Under the pieces are notes generated by a model, which made no database searches, was not told where the DNA came from, and saw only the letters and a list, made by a program, of their open reading frames with translations. Shown one piece after another: positions 49,749-61,098 of a DNA stretch of 64,000 bases. The stretch covers positions 2,170,001 to 2,234,000 of the forward strand of contig JABTUL010000001.1 in the NCBI GenBank assembly GCA_015075425.1, given 5' to 3'. Origin of the DNA: Spirochaetales bacterium (GTDB lineage Bacteria; Spirochaetota; Leptospiria; Leptospirales; Leptonemataceae). Made by a program: the position numbers and the translations under genes. Positions within the stretch are counted from its first letter, which is position 1. Every line of letters begins with the position of its first letter.

Positions 49749-50405
49749 TCAGGCTCCCTCATTCTTGAGGGACCACTTTACGGCCTGGCGAATCAAGTCA
49801 CTATTGCTTTCAAGACCCAGTTTGAGTTTGATATTGTTGCGATGGGTGTCGACTGTACTCGTGGAAATTCCCAGGGCTTTGCTTATTTTTTTTGCGGTCA
49901 TACCCTGGCCCAGCATGGTAAAGATTTCAAATTCCCGGTCTGTCAGCCCGCCGGTAGGACTTCCCGGATCTGCGTCTGGACTGCGAAACATGCGGCCCAA
50001 TAATTTGCTGGCCAGAGAGGGCGCGAGGAATATCTCTTTTTTGAGTACAGTCCGGATGGCGGAGATGAGCGCGTCCGCTGTTTCTCCCTTAAGCAAATAG
50101 CCTGTGGCACCCTGTTGCAGTGCGCGTTCGACATAGTCCAGCTCCTCATGCATGGATAGTACCAGCACCGGGATGGCCGGAAATTCTGTGTTGAGCTTCT
50201 TTAATAATGCAAAGCCATTTTCATTATTCTTCAAACCAATGTCGAGGATGACTATATCGGGCTTTACCTGGCCGATGCGGTGGTAAGCTTCCGAAATGGA
50301 ACTCGCATGCCCGCAGACTTCGAAGTCCGGCGTATGACTTACAACAGCCTGGATGCCAGCAACTACCAGAGTGTGGTCCTCGACTACGAAGATTTTCTTG
50401 GTCAT
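49749..50405 (-). CDS. NarL/FixJ-type response regulator
   Basis: 218 residues: receiver domain with phosphoacceptor Asp55 (IVILDIGLKNNENG), acidic pair near 10-11 (VVEDH), Ser/Thr in VLSMHE, Lys in YLLKGETADA, then a LuxR-type HTH (LTDREFEIFTMLGQGMTAKK, TVDTHRNNIKLKLGL). It should bind DNA when phosphorylated. It follows the PAS kinase on the same strand by 157 bases, so that kinase is the likely partner. Target genes unknown. Confidence 0.92.
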   Translation of the reverse strand: MTKKIFVVEDHTLVVAGIQAVVSHTPDFEVCGHASSISEAYHRIGQVKPDIVILDIGLKNNENGFALLKKLNTEFPAIPVLVLSMHEELDYVERALQQGATGYLLKGETADALISAIRTVLKKEIFLAPSLASKLLGRMFRSPDADPGSPTGGLTDREFEIFTMLGQGMTAKKISKALGISTSTVDTHRNNIKLKLGLESNSDLIRQAVKWSLKNEGA

Positions 50406-50562
50406 TCGATCCCTTAGGCACTTTAAAACTGGGACTTACCACCTGGGCAGGACCCGCAGCAGCCATAAAAGCTGTCTCCTTTTTTAGCAACTGATTGTTC
50501 CTGCAGTCTATAAAAAAGTCGATCTACTTAGCAATTTTTTGTTTTGATGCTCCTGATTGGAG

Positions 50563-52800
50563 CTAGGGCTGGCAGGGCAGATAAAACAGATACTCTACAC
50601 CCTCTCCTTCCCTATTACTTACTTGCATCAGCCCTTCCAGTGCTTCCACGCGCATGCGCATGATTTTCAGGCCGATTCCGGTGGAATCAGAAGTGGGTAG
50701 CGGCAGGGGGAGTCCATCGTTCCTGATTTGCAGCATGGCATGCTTTCCGCTCCGTATCAGCTGAATTTCGACTGTCCTGGATTGACCATGCCTGATGCTG
50801 TTGGTTATCGCTTCTCTTACTATGTGCAATAGATGGGTCCAGGCGTCTGCCTGCTGGATCCTTATGGTCTGGTCCACTTTCAGACTGCAATTTATTCGGA
50901 AATGCTCCTGCACCTCTTCCATACTCAGCTGAACGGCAGAAATGAAGCCATTCAGGTCCGCCGGTTGAGCAAGCATGCGACGTGAAAAATCACGGACCTG
51001 ACCAATTGCCTGCTTGATCATCTGTGTGCATACAGCCAGGGTGGCATCAGCCGGGCCGGATCTCCATTCTGGATGGGACTGGATGGAACCCAGCAGAAGG
51101 AGCAATCCGCTAAGCTGGCCGCCAATCAGATCATGCAGGTCGCGGCCAAATTTTTTGATCTCTATTTCACAAAGTTCCAGAAATTCCCTCTGTCTTTCCC
51201 GAGCCACCGATTGAGTAATATCATCAAAAAGAACACCCACCCTGGTGGACGTCATGCGAAAGGCCTGTAGATTGAATATTCTACGCTCGCCATCGGTATG
51301 AACGGCAAACTCACTCTGTTGACCCGTCCGTGACCGCAGGGCGAATTTGGCCATCAAAGACAGTTGCTGCTTTAGTGCAGAAGTTGCAGGATTAGCCCCA
51401 TGCAGGGGCTGCGGCAACGCCAGACCGAGGCCTAAAGTTTGACTGGCCAGGCGATTGCTCTCCACTACCATTACCTCTTCCCGACCATTGAATTCCAGAA
51501 CAACCAACGCTGCTGGCAGGGCCATGATGATTTCATGCACTTCAGCGGAGAGTTTGCTGACTTGATCGGCCAGACTCACCCGATGGCGTGCCAGTTGCAG
51601 ATCCATTTCCTTCTGCGATGTAATATCCCGGATAATGACAGCGATACGACAGGCTTTCTCCGAATCGTTTGCTATTGGACAGATGTGGATTCTGAGCCAG
51701 CGACCGGATAGCTGCTCGGTCATTTGAAAGGATTGTCCACTCTTGAAAGCCTCTTCCAGTAAGGGCTTCAAGAAGTTCGCTACATCGGGCTCAATGCCAG
51801 AGCTGTAAGTCCTACCGATCAGTAATTCTCGTGGCAGGTCCATTTTTTTGCATATGGATATACTGGCATTCAGGATGCGTAAGTTACTATCTACCAGCAG
51901 ACTCTCGTCTCCCGTAGAGTCCAGAAGCGCGGTGGTATCTGCCAGGCTCTGCTGCAGGCGTTCGGTCTTTATTTTTATTAGATTTTCTAGATCATCATAA
52001 TACCCCTGTAGTTCCCGTTCCAATTCCTTCTTGTGTTCGATATCCTGCACCAGGCCAATGACAAAAGCGGGCTCCGCGTTCTGACCCAGAATCAATGAGG
52101 CCGTGAGGCGGGTCCAGATAGACCGGCCATCTGCTCCAATGTATCGCTTCTCCGTCTGGAAATGGCCGCTTTGGCGGCGCAGTAGATCGTCAAAAAGCTG
52201 GATATCGGCTGCCAGATCATCAGGATGTGTGATGTCTCTGAAGTTAAGGTTTTGCAATTCGGGCAGGGTATAGCCCAGCATTTGCTGGAAAGCTTGATTG
52301 GCATCCAGTATGCCGCCTCTCAGGTCAGCAACCACGATACCTACGGCTGCATTCTGGAAGATGGCCTGAAAATGAGCCCGGCTTTCCGCAAGTTCCAGAG
52401 CGGTACGCGTTTGTTCTGTAACATCCACCAGGGAAAGGAGAAGGCCAAGGGCCTGACCATCTGCTTCATGGACGGCGGACAACCGCCAGTCCCAGTAGGT
52501 GATGCCCCACTCTGGATGGTCCGGAAAAATAAAGGGTTTGGCCTTGAATTCGATCGGCTTCCCGGTGTCGCGTACCTTACGGAAGAGGGCCTCATTTTCT
52601 GGATGCGGGTAGAAGTCGAAATGATTTTTACCCAGTAATTCTTCCGGTCGCCGGCCACAGGCCGCCGCATAGGAAGCATTGACCGCGAGAAAATGGAAAT
52701 CATTGTCGAGCAGGACCAGACAGGTGTGGGCCCTGTCGATCAGAGTCTGTAGCAGCAGGTGCTCGCGCTCGACTGCGCCTCTCCGGCTCCTATCTTCCAT
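50563..52800 (-). CDS. PAS-domain histidine kinase (HisKA_3, NarX-like)
   Basis: 745 cytoplasmic residues, no membrane segments. Four PAS-like domains in a row (near 15-125, 140-265, 290-400, 420-530) with PAC-type VTEQTRTALELAE linkers, then a HisKA_3 dimerisation domain with the phosphoacceptor His556 (GRDLHDLIGGQLSGL) and an HATPase domain (ITNSIRHGQSRTVEIQ, GIGLKIMRMRVEALEGL). It senses a soluble signal, perhaps redox or a small ligand, and should phosphorylate the NarL-type regulator next to it. Lies 60 bases downstream of cheX, same strand, so may ride on the chemotaxis transcript. Confidence 0.88.
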   Translation of the reverse strand: MEDRSRRGAVEREHLLLQTLIDRAHTCLVLLDNDFHFLAVNASYAAACGRRPEELLGKNHFDFYPHPENEALFRKVRDTGKPIEFKAKPFIFPDHPEWGITYWDWRLSAVHEADGQALGLLLSLVDVTEQTRTALELAESRAHFQAIFQNAAVGIVVADLRGGILDANQAFQQMLGYTLPELQNLNFRDITHPDDLAADIQLFDDLLRRQSGHFQTEKRYIGADGRSIWTRLTASLILGQNAEPAFVIGLVQDIEHKKELERELQGYYDDLENLIKIKTERLQQSLADTTALLDSTGDESLLVDSNLRILNASISICKKMDLPRELLIGRTYSSGIEPDVANFLKPLLEEAFKSGQSFQMTEQLSGRWLRIHICPIANDSEKACRIAVIIRDITSQKEMDLQLARHRVSLADQVSKLSAEVHEIIMALPAALVVLEFNGREEVMVVESNRLASQTLGLGLALPQPLHGANPATSALKQQLSLMAKFALRSRTGQQSEFAVHTDGERRIFNLQAFRMTSTRVGVLFDDITQSVARERQREFLELCEIEIKKFGRDLHDLIGGQLSGLLLLLGSIQSHPEWRSGPADATLAVCTQMIKQAIGQVRDFSRRMLAQPADLNGFISAVQLSMEEVQEHFRINCSLKVDQTIRIQQADAWTHLLHIVREAITNSIRHGQSRTVEIQLIRSGKHAMLQIRNDGLPLPLPTSDSTGIGLKIMRMRVEALEGLMQVSNREGEGVEYLFYLPCQP

Positions 52801-52860: not shown

Positions 52861-53370
52861 TCAGCTGCCGGGAAGATCGATAAGCAGCGCTATTTCTACG
52901 GCACCGGCCGTGTGGCGAAAGGCAAAGGTTTGGACGGCATCGGCCAGATCATGAGGTTGCAGACGACGACCGAGTGGACGCACAGAGCCCAGATTGACAT
53001 CGATACCCATTTCGTCCATGGCCACGATGATAGCCCCTGCTAAGGTATTCAGGGTTTCCCAGAGTATATGAACACTATCAAAAGTATTGCTTTCTTGGGG
53101 CAAGCCTGCCAGCATCTGCTTGCCCAGTTGGTCCAGAAGCTCCGGGGCAAATGAGGCGTAAATGTGACCATCCACAATGCCCTCGAAGGCTACGCAGCTC
53201 TGGCGAAATCGTCGCGGGAAGGCCACTTCTGTGGAATCCTCCAGTACACTGCCCAGCAGCTTTTCCAGGACATTACGACTGGCATTGATGATATTCATCC
53301 GGAATTGGGCGGAATGGACCGTCTCCCGGACACGATTCATGGCATCCCTGCGTCGGTCCAGGGTTGTCAT
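52861..53370 (-). CDS. cheX: CheX-like chemotaxis phosphatase
   Basis: 169 residues of the CheC/CheX fold. The CheX active motif E-x-x-N is visible in LWETLNTLAGAIIVAMDEM. CheX removes phosphate from CheY, ending the signal. It is the last of the chemotaxis run and overlaps cheY by ATGA, so it is made with its substrate. The second, N-terminal half lacks the paired motif of CheC, as expected of CheX. Confidence 0.7.
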   Translation of the reverse strand: MTTLDRRRDAMNRVRETVHSAQFRMNIINASRNVLEKLLGSVLEDSTEVAFPRRFRQSCVAFEGIVDGHIYASFAPELLDQLGKQMLAGLPQESNTFDSVHILWETLNTLAGAIIVAMDEMGIDVNLGSVRPLGRRLQPHDLADAVQTFAFRHTAGAVEIALLIDLPGS

Positions 53371-53729
53371 ACAGTTGCCATCACTTCCAGCACACGACTG
53401 GCATCAAAAGGCTTAACGATGAAGTGTTTGGCTCCATTCTTCAGGCACTCTTTAATGATGCTTTCCTTTCCAATAGCACTAACCATAACCACGCGAGCGG
53501 CAGGATTGGCCTCCATGATCAATTCCAGAACGCGTGTCCCGGCCATGGTGGGCATGGTAATATCCAGGGTAACCAGATCAATGTCCTGCATGTGTTCCTG
53601 ATAAGTCTTCACTGCTTCAAGCCCGGAACTCGCTGTCCGCACCACCTCATGTCCAGCCTCCTCGAAGATATGTTTCAATTGCCTGGTGGTGATGGGCGAA
53701 TCATCAACAATCATTATCTTTTTTTTCAT
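53367..53729 (-). CDS. cheY: chemotaxis response regulator CheY
   Basis: 120-residue single-domain receiver. Phosphoacceptor Asp56 (LVTLDITMP), acidic pair Asp9/Asp10 (IVDDSP), Ser in MVSAIG, Lys in FIVKPFD. Such a receiver binds the flagellar switch when phosphorylated by the CheA kinase. It starts after cheB by 20 bases and overlaps the CheX-type phosphatase gene by ATGA. Confidence 0.9.
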   Translation of the reverse strand: MKKKIMIVDDSPITTRQLKHIFEEAGHEVVRTASSGLEAVKTYQEHMQDIDLVTLDITMPTMAGTRVLELIMEANPAARVVMVSAIGKESIIKECLKNGAKHFIVKPFDASRVLEVMATV

Positions 53730-53748: not shown

Positions 53749-54813
53749 TCATGAATGGGCTATGATTTCCGGTACAATAGCAGCGAGCGGCAGCACCTTG
53801 CAGGCAGCTCCCAGTTCTATAGCCTCCCGCGGCATACCAAAAACAACGGACGTTGCTTCATCCTGGGCTATGGTATGGATTCCGGCCTTCCTCATTTCCA
53901 GAAGTCCGCGGGCTCCATCATCTCCCATCCCGGTCAGGAGTATACCAATGGCATTGCTCCCGGCCTGCTGGGCTACGGAACGGAACAGGACATCTGCCGA
54001 AGGACGGTGCCGATTGACCAGTGGACCATCTACGATGCGGGCAAGATAGCGTGCTCCGCTGCGTTCCACCGTCAAATGGCTGTTTCCCGGAGCAATGTAA
54101 GCATGACCACGCAGCAGAGCATCCTGATCGGCGGCTTCGCTGACATTGACAGCGCACAGGGCATTGAGGCGATCCGCAAACATGCGGGTGAAGTGTTCGG
54201 GCATGTGCTGCACGATGACGATGGCCGGTGCGTCGGAGCGTAACTCCTGCAACAATTCAGAAATCGCCTGAGTGCCTCCGGTGGAAGCCGCTATGGCCAC
54301 GATTTTATCTGTAGTGGTCCGCAGAGCTGCTGCCTGAGGTGCCGGTAGAATGACGTCAGCACTATACTTTTTTTCAGGCAATAGCATGGGCCGCAATGTG
54401 GCCGGATTGACTCGCGACGCGGCTCGTATAGCATCGGCGATTTGTAATTGCAGTTCCAGGTAGCGTTCGCGGGTGCCGATTTGCGGTTTGGCGATGACGT
54501 CCACGGCTCCAGAATGCAGAGCCGCAAACAGAGTGTCCGATCCATCCTGTACCAGGCTGGAACAAATGATGACCGGTATGGGATTCTGCTGCATGATCCG
54601 CTGTAAAAAAGACAGCCCATCCATTCGCGGCATCTCCAGATCCAGAATCATGACATCCGGCAATTCCGATCGTAGCAGGCCGGCGGCGTGTATGGGATCA
54701 GAGGCCGTACCCATGAGATCCATATCTGTCTCTTCTGCAAGTATCTGCCGGAAGACCTGCCGTACGAGCGCCGAATCATCTACAACCATCACTTTGATTT
54801 TGCGGTCTTCCAT
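53749..54813 (-). CDS. cheB: protein-glutamate methylesterase CheB
   Basis: 354 residues: receiver (Asp in VMILDLEMPRMDG) and methylesterase domain with the catalytic triad visible as Ser near residue 174 (AASTGGT), His in VIVQHMPEHF and Asp in GMGDDGA. Removes methyl groups (and deamidates Gln) on receptors, with its activity raised by phosphorylation. Ends one base before cheD's start region; cheD precedes it by one base. Confidence 0.95.
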   Translation of the reverse strand: MEDRKIKVMVVDDSALVRQVFRQILAEETDMDLMGTASDPIHAAGLLRSELPDVMILDLEMPRMDGLSFLQRIMQQNPIPVIICSSLVQDGSDTLFAALHSGAVDVIAKPQIGTRERYLELQLQIADAIRAASRVNPATLRPMLLPEKKYSADVILPAPQAAALRTTTDKIVAIAASTGGTQAISELLQELRSDAPAIVIVQHMPEHFTRMFADRLNALCAVNVSEAADQDALLRGHAYIAPGNSHLTVERSGARYLARIVDGPLVNRHRPSADVLFRSVAQQAGSNAIGILLTGMGDDGARGLLEMRKAGIHTIAQDEATSVVFGMPREAIELGAACKVLPLAAIVPEIIAHS

Positions 54814-54814
54814 A

Positions 54815-55306
54815 CTACAGTAGCTGTCCCGGCATTACGTTCGGATGCGTACATTCTGTATGCCCGGTTGAGGGCACAAACCGTAGCTTGCGTGGCAAAA
54901 CCCCGCCAGTGTTGCTCTCGCGGGGAATCAGCCCATGCTGTTGCAGCCATTGGCGGGCTGCCCGCACATTTTCGCCAGCTACATCGTAGAAAGATTCCAG
55001 ACCCGCCGAAAGCACCCGACCACCTCCGAATAGTTTCGCCTCCAGTTCTGGAATTCTGCAGCCTGATCCATAAAGTGTTCGTAACAGATATTCAAGAGCC
55101 CGATCCAGGTAGCACATCAGGCGTTCCGGGTTCGACTCGCCACCTGCTGCTGGAAGCATGGCATGGCAGATTCCACCCATTTTTTTCCCTCTATCATGCA
55201 GAGTTACGGATACACAGGAGCCCAGAATGGTTTCCACCTGCAAATTCTGCTGACGGTAAACAGCGCACTGCCCCGGTAACAAAAATTGGATCTGAATATT
55301 CTTCAT
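54815..55306 (-). CDS. cheD: chemoreceptor deamidase CheD
   Basis: 163 residues. Catalytic Cys31 (LGSCVSVTLHD) and His48 (ICHAMLP) are in place; the Thr/Gly region (AKLFGGGRVL) follows. CheD deamidates Gln to Glu on receptors and can act with CheC-type phosphatases. Four-base overlap with cheR (55303-55306), one base before cheB. Confidence 0.93.
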   Translation of the reverse strand: MKNIQIQFLLPGQCAVYRQQNLQVETILGSCVSVTLHDRGKKMGGICHAMLPAAGGESNPERLMCYLDRALEYLLRTLYGSGCRIPELEAKLFGGGRVLSAGLESFYDVAGENVRAARQWLQQHGLIPRESNTGGVLPRKLRFVPSTGHTECTHPNVMPGQLL

Positions 55307-56136
55307 ACTTTGCGATATATTCCCGGTCCGGTGATTTTGAGGGCAACGTCTATGGACAAGAGCGATTCAGAGTTGCCGATGATCAGATAGCCGCCGCGCA
55401 CCAGGCGCCCACTGAGTCGTTCTACAATATTTTTACGGTTCTGATGATCAAAATATATAAGGACATTTCTACAGAAAATAAAGTGAAAATTCCTGTCAGG
55501 ATATTGTTGATGTTCCATAAGATTTATCCTACAGAAATGCACACGCGAACGAATCTCAGGCGCTACGCGAAATGATTTCTGATTGTTGTCGCGCGGAAAT
55601 AAAAGGCAAGGTTTGTGGTACATTTCCGGTATCTGCTCCAGAAGTTCCGCGCGATACACTGCCTTCAGTGCATGCTCCAGCATACCAGTGGAAATATCAC
55701 TGGCAAGTATAGATACTGGCACCTCCGGTAAGGCCAGAGCCAACTGCATAGACAGCGAGTAGGGCTCTTCGCCGCTGGCGCAGGCAGCGCTCCAGAGGGA
55801 TAGTTCACTCTTGATGAGGGGTAGCATATCCGGCAGTAAGGCCTGCTCCAGCGTTTGAAAGGTCGCTCTTTCCCGGAAGAATTCGGTTTTATTGGTAGTG
55901 ATGGCATCGATCAGGATAACTGTTTCATCCCCATCTTCCTTCTGGAAAAAATAATCGCAGTAGTCATCATAACTGTTCAGGCCAAGCTCTTTCAGGCGCC
56001 GGGAGAGACGATTCATAAGCAGCATACGCTTGTCTGCTGGCATTTTGATGCCGCAGTGGTCCTCAATGAATCGACTCAACCGTTCCTGATTGAAACTGGA
56101 AAAATCTGTTCCTGGTCTTTGCAGCAACAAGGTCAT
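55303..56136 (-). CDS. cheR: chemotaxis methyltransferase CheR
   Basis: 277 residues: N-terminal helical domain ([20 protein letters not shown]) and SAM-dependent domain ([62 protein letters not shown]). Methylates Glu on receptors. ATG at 56136 overlaps the receptor's stop by four bases. The receptor before it lacks a CheR-docking pentapeptide, so CheR must bind directly. Confidence 0.95.
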
Positions 56137-57710
56137 CCCAGTTTCTGAAACTCCGCATCCAGAGCATCCCCGGCATTGGACAGTTCGTAATCAAAGCCCT
56201 TCTCTGACCTGCCATTGCCTTTGCCATTGGTGCTGGCCGTGCGAGTGGTGGAAGTGGTCTTCAGCGTAGTAACGGAAGAGCCCGCCTTGCTTGCGGGCGC
56301 ATGGTGGCTAAAATGCTTCAGGTTTGAAGTGTCTTCCTTTTCTTTACCGTACATGATTACCTCCACTATCCGGCGCAGTTCCTGAGCCTGAGAAGCAAGC
56401 TCTTCTGATGTGGAAGCGAGTTCTTCAGCAGCAGAGGCATTCTCCTGGATGACCGAGCCGAACTGCTCCACGGCTTTGTAGACCTGGCCGGCCCCTGTAT
56501 TCTGTTCCATGCTGGCAGCATTGATTTCAGAAACGAGGCCGGCCGTTCTTTCAATGTCCGGGACCAGCTTGAGAATCAGCTCCCCGGCTCGCCTGGCCGT
56601 ATCCACGCTGCCCTGTGAGAGTTCACTAATTTCTGCGGCTGCGATTTTGCTGCGTTCGGCCAGTTTCTGGACCTCCGAGGCTACGACGGCAAAGCCTTTG
56701 CCCTGGTTACCGGCACGAGCGGCCTCAATGGAGGCATTGAGCGCGAGCAAGCTGGTCTGCCCGGCAATTTCCTGCACTATGCCAATTTTTTCGGCAATCA
56801 GATTCATTGCTTCTACGGTGCGCTTGACCTCTTCTCCACTTTTTCGAGCGTCCTGGGAAACCTGCTGGGCAATTTTTTCTGTCTGTCCGGCATTTTCCGT
56901 ATTCTGTTTGATGGTAGAAGTCATCTCTTCCAGCGTGGAAGAGATCTCCTCAATGGAGGCCGCTTGCTCGGATGCACCCTGGGAAATCTGCTGCGAAGAT
57001 GAGCTCAATTGTTCGCTGCCGGCAGCCACGCCGGCGACGGTACTCAGCGCACTTTGCATCGCCTGGCGGATGTTACGGATAATGAGAACAGCCAGGCCGG
57101 CAGCCAGCACGAGTCCTACCAGTGCCAGAATCAGTGACAGGGTCAGCAGCCGCGAGAAGAGCGCATCACTGGATGTCCTGTCGTCATCCAGAAACTTATC
57201 CTGAGTGGCCAGGATCTCACGCAATACGCCCTGTGCATTGTCGATTTTTTCGCGGCCGGCTGTGGCGCTGAGCGCGCGGGCCCGGGTACTGGATTCAGCT
57301 GTATTGATCAGGGAAAGCTGGATGATCTGTTCCTGGATTTTTTTGAATTCTACCCAGTCTGATCGAAATTTCTTGAGCCTGGCTTTACTCTCGGCAAGGA
57401 TCAGGAGACTATCCAGCTCATCCAGGATTTTTGGCAATTCCTCTTCTGACTTCTGGATTTCGCTTATATAGCGCCGCATTTCCGCTGCATCGGTTTCCAG
57501 AATGAGGTTCTTCTCCGCACGATGAATCTCTAACGTCATAAGCTGGATCCGGGCCGCCAGTCTGATTCTGGGTGCCGTAGAATCGGTGATATTATTGAGC
57601 ATTCCATTGAGTTCGTTCAGACCCCACAGCCCGGCTGCGGCAATAGTCAGCATGAGCAAAATCATGGTTGCAAAAGCTCCAATCAAACGACCGGCAATTC
57701 CTAATTTCAT
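56133..57710 (-). CDS. methyl-accepting chemotaxis protein
   Basis: 525 residues: membrane segment 1 (near 11-31), a helical periplasmic sensor of about 155 residues (4HB-type), membrane segment 2 ([20 protein letters not shown]), a short HAMP-like region, and the signalling hairpin with tip sequence [20 protein letters not shown] and flanking methylation helices ([19 protein letters not shown]). C-terminus DAEFQKLG without a pentapeptide. Ligand unknown. It lies between the split kinase and cheR. Confidence 0.93.
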
Positions 57711-57759: not shown

Positions 57760-58614
57760 TCATAAATTCAGGGTGTTCCTCTGTAGAACGGCTCCAGGAT
57801 CCAGCAGAAAGACAATCTGGTCCTGCCAGCGGGCTGCTGCTTGAACACAGGCCCAGTCCAGACGGAGCATTTCACTGTCCGGCTTGAACAAAGCCTGGCC
57901 GGAAAAATCAGCCACGGTGCGCACGCCGCTAATCAGAAAAGCAACATACGTGCCTTGAAAAAAAAGAACTAAAACCAGAGGATCACTACCCTGATCTAGA
58001 CCCAGACGATCACGCAAATTCAGGACCGGGATGATCTTTCCCTGATGGTTTATGACGCCAGCGATGAAACTCTCTACCTGGGGCAGGGGGGTGATTGCCG
58101 GCCTTTCGATGATTTCGTGCCCCTCCTGGACACTGATGGCGGCCAGAGTCTGACCCACGTCAAAAATGATATAGGCATCCCTTCCCTCCTCTGCTTCCTG
58201 GATTATGTTTTCGGAGCGTGTTTGCACGGCGGCTGTCCCCTGCGTGCACGAGCGCAGGCGTTCCAGCAGATTCTGATCCACAGCTCCCTGCTGGCCATGG
58301 CCAAATTCATGAAGGTGCGAGCGCAGCCGGGCTGAAGCTTCCAGAATCAAATCGATGCAGCTTTCCGTGGCAGCAAATTCGCCGGAACGCACCCGGTCCA
58401 GTACGGATTCAATTTCATGGGATAGCAACTCAACAGAGCCAGCGCCCACCACGCCGGAGTCGCCTTTCAGGCTATGGTAGTGGCGGAAGAGTTCGTTGAT
58501 GGTTTCTTCATCGCCGGGATTTCTTTCGAGCAACAGAAAAAGCCCCTCGGCAGCTCCCAGATGCTCTTCTGCCAGAGTCAGGAATTCATTCAGGTGATCA
58601 TGCATTTCTGTCAT
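57760..58614 (-). CDS. Hpt-CheW fusion (phosphotransfer half of a split CheA)
   Basis: 284 residues: an Hpt domain (1-110) with phosphoacceptor His47 in [15 protein letters not shown], a linker, then a CheW-like domain from about 145 ([53 protein letters not shown]). It lacks dimerisation and ATPase domains. The preceding gene, which it overlaps by ATGA, has exactly those. The layout parallels CheA3 of Rhodobacter (P1 and P5) beside CheA4. The CheW-like part would let it join the receptor array. Confidence 0.9.
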
Positions 58615-60179
58615 ACAGCTTCTCTTTGCTCCCGCTGCCGGTGCATTTGCTTCAGGGAGCTTTTCACATCGATGATCAAAGCCACCCGACCATCGCCCAG
58701 GATGGTTCCGCCGCTGATCCCGGCCACCGACCCGAGGTAAGTTCCGAGTGATTTGATTACGATTTCCTGCTGACCCAGTACCTGTTCGGCGATGATACCG
58801 GAGCGGCCATCCTGTAGTGCAGTTTCGATGAGAAAAAGTTCGGATGGCAATTCTTTCTCGGGCCTGCCAAAGAGGCCAGCAATCGGGTAAGCCGGTATAG
58901 AATACGAGACCAGATTGACCAGGAGAGACTGACCTACGGTCTGGATGTCGGTCTTATGGATACGCGAAACCTTGCCAATGGACAGTAGTGGCAGTGCAAA
59001 AACCTGATCCTGATCTTTGACCAGCAGGGCATCGACGATGGAAAGCGTGAGTGGGATCTTAAGCGTGATGCGCGTACCCTGCCCAACCTGAGATTCGACC
59101 TGGACGCTGCCGCCAATTTTTTCGACATTGCTTTTGACCACGTCCATGCCCACGCCCCGGCCGGAAATGTCAGTGATGCTTCTTGCCGTAGAAAATCCGG
59201 GACGAAATATCAGATCCAGAATTTCCTGTTCACCGGCATTGATCTGGTCCTTCTGAAGCAGTCCGCGCTCCAGGGCGCGGACCTTGATGGTTTCCAGGTC
59301 CAGCCCCCGGCCATCGTCCTCCACGATGACTTTGATGCTATCGTCTTCGTAGAAGGCTTCGACCAGGATATGGCCTTCAACCGATTTTCCCACCCTCAGG
59401 CGTTCGCCTGCAGATTCCAGGCCGTGGTCAATGGCATTGCGGATGAGATGGGTCAGGGGATCGGTCAGGGCTTCCAGAATGACCTTGTCCAGTTCTGTTT
59501 CTCCTCCTGAGAGCAGCAGGCGCACCTGCTTTTCTTGCTTGCGTGCCAGCTCACGGACCATGGCCGGAAGCCGGGCCAGGGTCAGTTCCAGCGGAACCAT
59601 GCGGATACTCAGTGAAAGATCACGGAGCTGCCGTATGACCAGGTCCAGCTGGTTGGAGGCCAGATCCAGGCCGACGGCCAGACTGTTATCGAGTTCCGCG
59701 CGGTGCAGCCTGTGCGAAAGGGTGTCCACCTGACTTTTGCTGATGATGAGTTCACCCACCAGGTCTACCAGTTGTTCGATCTTATCGAGTCCAATGCGAA
59801 TATGGCTGCTTTTTCCGTTACGATGCTGTCCCATTTTCCTGTTTTGCCGTTCCTGCACTCCTTCTGATTTTGCAGGTTGTGCAGAAAGTTCCTCGGCCAG
59901 GGGTGCTGGATGGACCGTCCAGTTAGCCAGACCGTTGACCGGTACCAGCCATTGCGCGACAACATCATTGATTCGGACTCCGGCAGTCCCGGCCTCAGGC
60001 GTGAAAGAAAAAGTGAGCTCATAGCGGTGAGCAGCCTGTGCCGTGCCGGAAAATGGGTCGGGCTTGATGGCAAGCGCCTGATCGCTCGTCGCTGTGGAGA
60101 AAATCTGGTAGAGCTGAACGCCTACGACATCCGGGAAGACCAGATCTTTTTCGAGGTCAACTTCAACCTGCCAGCGCAT
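58611..60179 (-). CDS. cheA: CheA kinase core without Hpt domain
   Basis: 522 residues. The first 95 residues (WQVEVDLEKDLVFPDVVGVQ) look like the P2-type region. Then P3 dimerisation (GLDKIEQLVDLVGELIISKS), P4 ATPase (N-box LTHLIRNAIDHGLE, G1 VEDDGRGLD, F-box IFRPGFSTARSITDISGRG, G2 GVGMDVVKSNVEKIGG) and a C-terminal CheW-like domain. No HxxKG Hpt motif exists anywhere in it, so it must phosphorylate a separate Hpt protein, presumably the next gene. Start overlaps cheW by 17 bases. Confidence 0.92.
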   Translation of the reverse strand: MRWQVEVDLEKDLVFPDVVGVQLYQIFSTATSDQALAIKPDPFSGTAQAAHRYELTFSFTPEAGTAGVRINDVVAQWLVPVNGLANWTVHPAPLAEELSAQPAKSEGVQERQNRKMGQHRNGKSSHIRIGLDKIEQLVDLVGELIISKSQVDTLSHRLHRAELDNSLAVGLDLASNQLDLVIRQLRDLSLSIRMVPLELTLARLPAMVRELARKQEKQVRLLLSGGETELDKVILEALTDPLTHLIRNAIDHGLESAGERLRVGKSVEGHILVEAFYEDDSIKVIVEDDGRGLDLETIKVRALERGLLQKDQINAGEQEILDLIFRPGFSTARSITDISGRGVGMDVVKSNVEKIGGSVQVESQVGQGTRITLKIPLTLSIVDALLVKDQDQVFALPLLSIGKVSRIHKTDIQTVGQSLLVNLVSYSIPAYPIAGLFGRPEKELPSELFLIETALQDGRSGIIAEQVLGQQEIVIKSLGTYLGSVAGISGGTILGDGRVALIIDVKSSLKQMHRQREQREAV

Positions 60180-60732
60180 GCTCTTCCTCCTGACTCCTTA
60201 GAATTTGCTGGATGCTGGCTGCTTCGTGGGCCGAAATCAGGGCCTGAAAATCAAGCACGACGAATGCCATGTCTCCCTGATTGATGATTGAGCGAATGGT
60301 ACGTCCGGAATCATGCCGGGAAAGTTGCCCCCGCTCTTCCAGCTCTTCGCGGGAGACATTGATGACACTGGAAACGGCGTCCACCAGCAGGCCCAGGAGC
60401 GTACCATGCAGTGCAGCAATGAGTATATGTGCACCCTGGCCGGAGCTGCGTTGAAAACCGAGTTTGCGGCGAATGTCGACGACGGGAATGATGTCCTCAC
60501 GGTGTTTCATCATGCCTTCAAGGAGGCTGGAGCGTCCAGGAATAGGCACGATGGTGCCCGTCAGAACGACCTCATTGATGCGTTCCACAGGTAGTGCAAA
60601 CAGGCTACCCTCAACGGTAAAAGTTACGAGCGTGGCCTGATCGACATCGATCTCTTCCTGCATTATTTCAGCGTCGGATCCGCTCAGGAAGCGCTCAAGG
60701 CGCAGAATAAAGCCATTCGATTTATGATCCAT
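60163..60732 (-). CDS. cheW: coupling protein CheW
   Basis: 189 residues, one CheW domain (TLVTFTVEGSLFALPVERIN, VVLTGTIVPIPG, MKHREDIIPVVDIRRKLGF, LGLLVDAVSSVINVS) with a short N-terminal extension of about 45 residues. Links receptors to the kinase. ATG at 60732 has GGGGGAG just upstream; first gene of the nine-gene operon, in front of cheA. Confidence 0.9.
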   Translation of the reverse strand: MDHKSNGFILRLERFLSGSDAEIMQEEIDVDQATLVTFTVEGSLFALPVERINEVVLTGTIVPIPGRSSLLEGMMKHREDIIPVVDIRRKLGFQRSSGQGAHILIAALHGTLLGLLVDAVSSVINVSREELEERGQLSRHDSGRTIRSIINQGDMAFVVLDFQALISAHEAASIQQILRSQEEEHALAG

Positions 60733-61098
60733 CAACTCCCCCAAGAGCAAACACCTATTTCAACAGACAAGGTCCGGCTGGACTCAGGGACCGACCGCAA
60801 ACAGTTAATGCGACTGCAAAACAGAAGGTCAATCAAATTTTTTCATTTCATAAAATTAAATATAACTCATTTTCAAATACTAAAAACCGCTATCGTCTCT
60901 TCATGGAAAGCCCGACATCGCTGGCGCAGCACTTTCCCGGTGCTGCCTTGAGCTATGATCGGATCACATCCACCATGCGACGTAAGCCGGCATCACCGGA
61001 AATTCCGCAGCCACTTTCACAGCAGCATCAATGATTTTTGCTCTGCTCCGGATCCCCCGCTCCGCTCTCCTGAACGTATACAGAACCTGGAACAATTG
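60733..61098. promoter_or_regulatory. upstream region of the chemotaxis operon
   Basis: No gene. The stretch 60830-60905 is clearly richer in A and T than its surroundings, as expected for a promoter. On the minus strand TTGACC stands about 70 bases before the GGGGGAG ribosome site, but no good -10 box is at the proper distance. No sigma-54 or sigma-28 match was found by eye. Confidence 0.35.

Follow-up and report, generated by a model that had tools for sequence, protein, structure and literature searches.

A che operon in the window (the 64,000-nucleotide stretch of DNA analysed here) appears to encode a chemotaxis kinase divided between two proteins, a kinase core with dimerisation (P3), ATPase (P4) and P5 domains, and a partner, here called HptW, with a phosphotransfer (Hpt, P1) domain and a CheW-type domain. 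The sequence data support a real, conserved variant of bipartite CheA, the biochemistry of which we infer. We consider it quite probable that the pair works as a two-protein CheA in which the core phosphorylates His47 of HptW in trans and HptW, held in the receptor array, feeds CheY and CheB. That the Hpt of a chemotaxis kinase has here moved onto a CheW-type adaptor, with an origin separate from that of CheA3/CheA4 of Rhodobacter (Cereibacter) sphaeroides, is put forward more tentatively.

The operon runs from 60750 to 52861 on the minus strand in the order cheW, core, HptW, MCP, cheR, cheD, cheB, cheY and cheX-like, and is contiguous, with intergenic distances of -17 to +49 bp (Table 1). Pfam searches upheld its description as a complete che operon in the first-pass annotation, the CheX match being weak, while the accompanying statement that there is no fused CheA was true of the operon but not of the genome, in which two fused CheAs of 670 and 971 aa are encoded elsewhere. 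The cheW and core genes share 17 bp, and the cheW product scored 89–98 bits with the CheW profile described below vs. 17–34 with the P5 profile; its core motif is altered (MMKHREDIIPV vs. the usual VINLRGxIIPV). Directly downstream of the operon and on the same strand (49749–52800) lie genes for a PAS-rich HisKA_3 histidine kinase and a NarL-type response regulator, with gaps of 60 and 157 bp, which are possibly co-transcribed with it. The 971-aa fused CheA (L048:8796–11711 on contig C1 of the window's own genome, G000) has a CheC/CheX-like C-terminus, an architecture reported from class Leptospirae (PMC10782961), and a similar CheA was also seen in G178 (L173), a genome outside the window's class.

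Table 1. Coordinates of the operon features in the window, with the basis of each assignment.
Feature	Position	Strand	Content and basis
cheW	60163..60750	(-)	Start codon uncertain within ORF; Pfam CheW E 8e-25
Kinase core	58611..60179	(-)	P2-like N-terminal domain, P3, P4, P5, no Hpt; Pfam, ATP-site motifs, PDB profile matches
P2-like domain of core	59835..60179	(-)	Residues 1–115, folded part about 1–95; hhalign and predicted topology
HptW	57760..58614	(-)	Hpt (His47) and CheW-type domain; Pfam, CheW-vs-P5 profiles, model and Foldseek
Methyl-accepting chemoreceptor (MCP), four-helix-bundle sensor	56133..57710	(-)	Pfam
cheR	55303..56136	(-)	Pfam
cheD	54815..55306	(-)	Pfam
cheB	53749..54813	(-)	Pfam; NCBIfam above cut-off
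cheY	53367..53729	(-)	Pfam response regulator; D9, D10, D56, K106-region present
CheX-like CheY phosphatase (predicted)	52861..53370	(-)	Pfam CheX 19.5 bits, cut-off 27; ExxN at 105

Pfam assigned H-kinase_dim (residues 125–189), HATPase_c (240–378) and CheW (384–509) domains to the 522-aa core, and Hpt (8–99, E 5e-13) and CheW (148–279, E 3e-21) domains, joined by a disordered linker at about residues 126–144, to the 284-aa HptW. Neither a kinase or ATPase domain (at E up to 10) nor a receiver domain was detected by Pfam in HptW, and no Hpt was detected in the core even at E = 10. The ATP-binding motifs of the core (N, G1, F, G2 and G3) are all kept, a PDB profile search matched it to P3-P4-P5 of CheA, and the phospho-accepting His47 of HptW (HSLKG) is intact. 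The domain content given for both proteins in the first-pass annotation was confirmed in this way, as was the 4-bp overlap of their genes, an ATGA that we read at 58614–58611 and that suggests translational coupling. Together the proteins hold all of P1, P3, P4 and P5, as a functional CheA unit does, plus an extra CheW-fold domain; P1 and P4, which a single-protein CheA would carry together, are here on separate chains.

The C-terminal domain of HptW was compared with profiles of stand-alone CheWs and of P5s from fused CheAs, half of the sequences being used for training and the rest for testing. Held-out P5s favoured the P5 profile by 25 to 168 bits and held-out CheWs the CheW profile by 56 to 189 bits, with no overlap. 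In all seven HptWs (the window's and those of six relatives, see below) this domain scored 81–120 bits with CheW profiles vs. 8–37 with P5 profiles, the margin for CheW being 73–75 bits in the window's copy and 63–87 in the others, while the CheW-fold domains of the cores all favoured the P5 profile. P5 domains, including those of the cores, formed a clade (99) in the domain tree with HptW outside, and the HptW CheW-like domains grouped together (99), with one long-branched CheW inside; a tree of Hpt domains had too few columns to place HptW, a single HptW clade being neither supported nor rejected (AU p 0.62). Foldseek ranked CheW structures first for the C-terminal half of HptW, with which a PDB sequence search agreed, and matched the N-terminal half to CheA P1 (TM 0.79–0.91 depending on the target). 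The natural reading of these comparisons is that HptW originated as an Hpt fused to a CheW, not as a CheA that lost its middle.

An aspartate two residues past the lysine of the KG motif (HSxKGD) is invariant in the seven HptWs. Once two re-sampled loci of HptW itself are set aside, it occurs in about 1 of the 123 other Hpt domains compared; we speculate that it may tune recognition of the kinase or the regulator. Of the seven HptWs, that of the window has diverged furthest. In place of the NLRG of all 36 matched CheWs and of the six relatives, its CheW motif has NHQG, and coupling may therefore be altered in this copy.

Ahead of P3, the core carries about 100 residues that are conserved in all seven cores (FPSI...DIYR) and that matched no family in a Pfam search. 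When compared by hhalign with the segment between P1 and P3 in five fused CheAs of spirochaetes, all with a Pfam P2 there, this N-terminal domain scored 36.6, relative to at most 15.8 for 100 column-permuted controls, 8.8 for the reversed alignment and at most 16.8 for other che domains. Its predicted topology (beta-alpha-beta-beta-alpha-beta) is that of P2, in a modest model (pLDDT 64) for which Foldseek returned generic ferredoxin-like folds and no P2 among the 50 matches listed; hhalign found nothing in non-spirochaete inter-domain regions, which were mixed and in many cases too short for P2. From the profile comparison we read the domain as a diverged P2, which would place the cut in CheA between P1 and P2. 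A second Hpt hidden in the core, a doubt raised by the first-pass annotation, was rejected on the missing Pfam Hpt match at the threshold above, on the predicted topology of the N-terminal domain and its alignment with P2, and on the three histidines of this domain, which lack an Hpt context.

A single-sequence search of genome contigs returned no relatives, and an alignment was therefore used as the query. Among 393 genomes sampled from Spirochaetota (61 related genomes were searched first), seven, belonging to five families, yielded a full-length HptW, as did one of the 22 sampled from the window's own family, in keeping with the earlier remark that the arrangement seems unusual for a spirochaete. 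Six of the seven HptWs scored 382–448 bits and the seventh 286; the next match scored 113 bits, and from there down the matches were ordinary CheA Hpt or CheW domains. At E 1e-40, no HptW match came from the 1,001 genomes sampled, without a positive control, in four other phyla (345, 398, 129 and 129; those of Desulfobacca, a Rhodocyclaceae genome, Bryobacterales and a planctomycete), and a plasmid search returned no full-length relative. Among 80 contig loci returned, the pair was present only in five spirochaete ones, nearly all the others being fused CheAs.

Both proteins are present in all seven genomes, the six besides the window's being independently assembled, and the relatives' proteins share 27–42% identity with those of the window and keep the catalytic residues. 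In the window and in five relatives the HptW gene immediately follows that of the core, with a 4-bp overlap in two of the relatives (L040, L042), gaps of 24–27 bp in two and 36 bp in one. The same pair in the same order, which the first-pass annotation had proposed to look for, was thus recovered as neighbours in five relatives but not in G178, where the order is core, unnamed ORF, CheR, CheY, HptW, CheY and another ORF, with the pair three genes apart. Core and HptW are separate genes that travel as a set. In the core tree the seven cores grouped together (100/100), away from fused CheAs, even those encoded in the same genomes, and the trees of the cores and of the HptW CheW-type domains agree among the seven (G034 with G040, G059 with G178, G033 with G041, and the window with the last two); since vertical inheritance alone gives the same agreement, this shows co-inheritance and not binding. 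Each pair-bearing genome has one to four further P3-bearing CheAs; the ones inspected came from the window's genome, G034, G040, G059 and G178 and proved to be fused.

Other rearranged CheAs were also observed. In G027, a genome of the window's order, a 241-aa Hpt-bearing ORF is followed by a 458-aa P3-P4-P5 ORF (L052:2232–4359), an apparent split and a possible frameshift, which was long-branched and fell outside the clade of seven cores. Four loci from Planctomycetota and Candidatus Adiutrix (L117, L124, L129, L079) encode CheAs whose Hpt is C-terminal (P3-P4, P5, P1), and the three that were placed in the core tree formed one long-branched clade.

CheA3/CheA4 of R. sphaeroides, which had been named as the known parallel, matches the spirochaete pair well in function but not in construction. 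Both systems combine a protein that has an Hpt and a CheW-fold domain with a second one that has dimerisation, ATPase and P5 domains, and encode the two in one che operon. Part of the P1 of R. sphaeroides CheA3 (PDB 3kyi) was used as a query for CheA3 orthologues; 10 of the 375 genomes searched in that family had one, and six loci were read. The CheA3 C-terminal domain is P5-type (51–78 bits, CheW at most 8), whereas that of HptW is CheW-type by the scores given above. CheA3 orthologues are 1030–1240 aa long, whereas the seven HptWs are 284–325 aa and lack the very long linker (794 residues in CheA3), which holds degenerate CheA domains (PMC10782961) and a CheY6 phosphatase region (PMC2829493). 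CheA4 (399–413 aa) starts P3 at residue 13–25 and has no P2-like domain, whereas the spirochaete cores begin with one, and the cluster has cheA4 at one end and cheA3 at the other, whereas the spirochaete genes are together. CheA3 has been proposed to be a CheA with decayed middle domains (PMC10782961); its P5-type C-terminus and the cheA3/cheA4 layout fit this proposal, which HptW does not.

Hamer et al. list a few short-linker P1-P5 proteins from an architecture search (PMC2829493), which, set beside HptW by description, likewise combine an Hpt with a CheW-fold domain and have a shorter linker, and C. saccharolyticus also has a P3-P4-P5 CheA besides its P1-P5 protein. Bipartite CheAs with a stand-alone Hpt gene are known (PMC10782961). 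A Candidatus Scalindua locus (L116), in which a bare Hpt gene adjoins the core, resembles the spirochaete pair in having the Hpt apart from the core in one operon, but its Hpt protein has no CheW domain and hence no adaptor anchor, whereas HptW has one. CheV, a CheW fused to a receiver domain, also places a phosphorylation domain on a CheW-type adaptor, but this receiver accepts phosphate, whereas the N-terminal Hpt of HptW donates it.

In favour of a true CheA3/CheA4 system, related by common descent to the alphaproteobacterial one, P1 is separated from P3-P4-P5 in both, and a joint core clade was not rejected (AU p 0.168), so that the cores may share an ancestor. However, the spirochaete cores and CheA4 formed separate 100/100 clades in the best core tree, in which the spirochaete cores share with fused CheAs a branch (98/91) that contains no CheA4, and the differences in C-terminal domain type, P2-like domain and linker also argue against this reading, which as a whole we regard as quite unlikely. 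HptW might instead be a shared phosphotransfer adaptor, also or mainly phosphorylated by fused CheAs and joining chemotaxis pathways, as fused CheAs occur in all seven genomes and a CheW-type domain could enter other arrays; that the two fused CheAs of the window's genome could also phosphorylate HptW counts against a two-protein CheA. Yet six of the seven genomes have HptW next to the core and the seventh has both in one cluster, the two trees branch alike, and fused CheAs have their own Hpt, whereas the core has none but that of HptW, which makes a shared adaptor unlikely.

The divergence and altered CheW motif of the window's copy could point to a decaying remnant, or the pair could be a fused CheA split by mutation or, the other doubt raised in the first-pass annotation, by an error of sequencing or assembly. 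A broken CheA would have the Hpt upstream and a single CheW-fold domain, whereas here the Hpt is downstream, after the core, and there are two such domains, and the pair recurs in the six other genomes at the identities given above with catalytic residues kept. An assembly or frameshift artefact was rejected on these grounds, and a remnant of any kind is very improbable.

The two-protein CheA, our preferred reading, is supported by the complementary domains of core and HptW and by both active sites being intact. The core would dimerise through P3 and bind receptors through P5, and its P4 would use ATP to phosphorylate His47 of HptW in trans. This is expected by analogy with R. sphaeroides, in which an Hpt-less kinase phosphorylates a separate Hpt protein and neither partner autophosphorylates alone, whereas the mixture does (PMC3591291). 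The CheW-type domain would anchor HptW in the receptor array near the kinase, with the Hpt on the adaptor and not on the kinase chain; phospho-HptW would then pass phosphate to the operon's CheY and CheB, which the P2-like domain of the core probably recruits, and CheX would take phosphate off CheY. The sequences show which domains are present, that the catalytic motifs are intact and the pair conserved, that HptW is of the CheW type and that the core has a P2-like domain; we infer that phosphorylation occurs in trans, that HptW is placed in the array, that the P2-like domain works as a P2 and that phosphate flows in the direction given.

The split CheA of R. sphaeroides has been called unique to this species and its relatives (PMC10782961) and too rare for a useful paradigm (PMC2829493). 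No description of the spirochaete pair, of a CheW-type Hpt partner or of a P2-bearing core was found in the literature searched, which mostly excluded subscription journals. A second split system, in another phylum and of different parts, would provide an independent case beside the only one studied. Ultrasensitivity has been predicted for split kinases (PMC3591291), and HptW, being short and without the phosphatase linker that complicates CheA3, should offer a simpler system in which to test it. The pair also raises the question of whether a phosphodonor can work from the CheW position of an array. If an Hpt on an adaptor of separate origin proves true, donor sites would stand at adaptor positions in the receptor array, and their number per kinase could vary, whereas a fused CheA fixes it at one per subunit.
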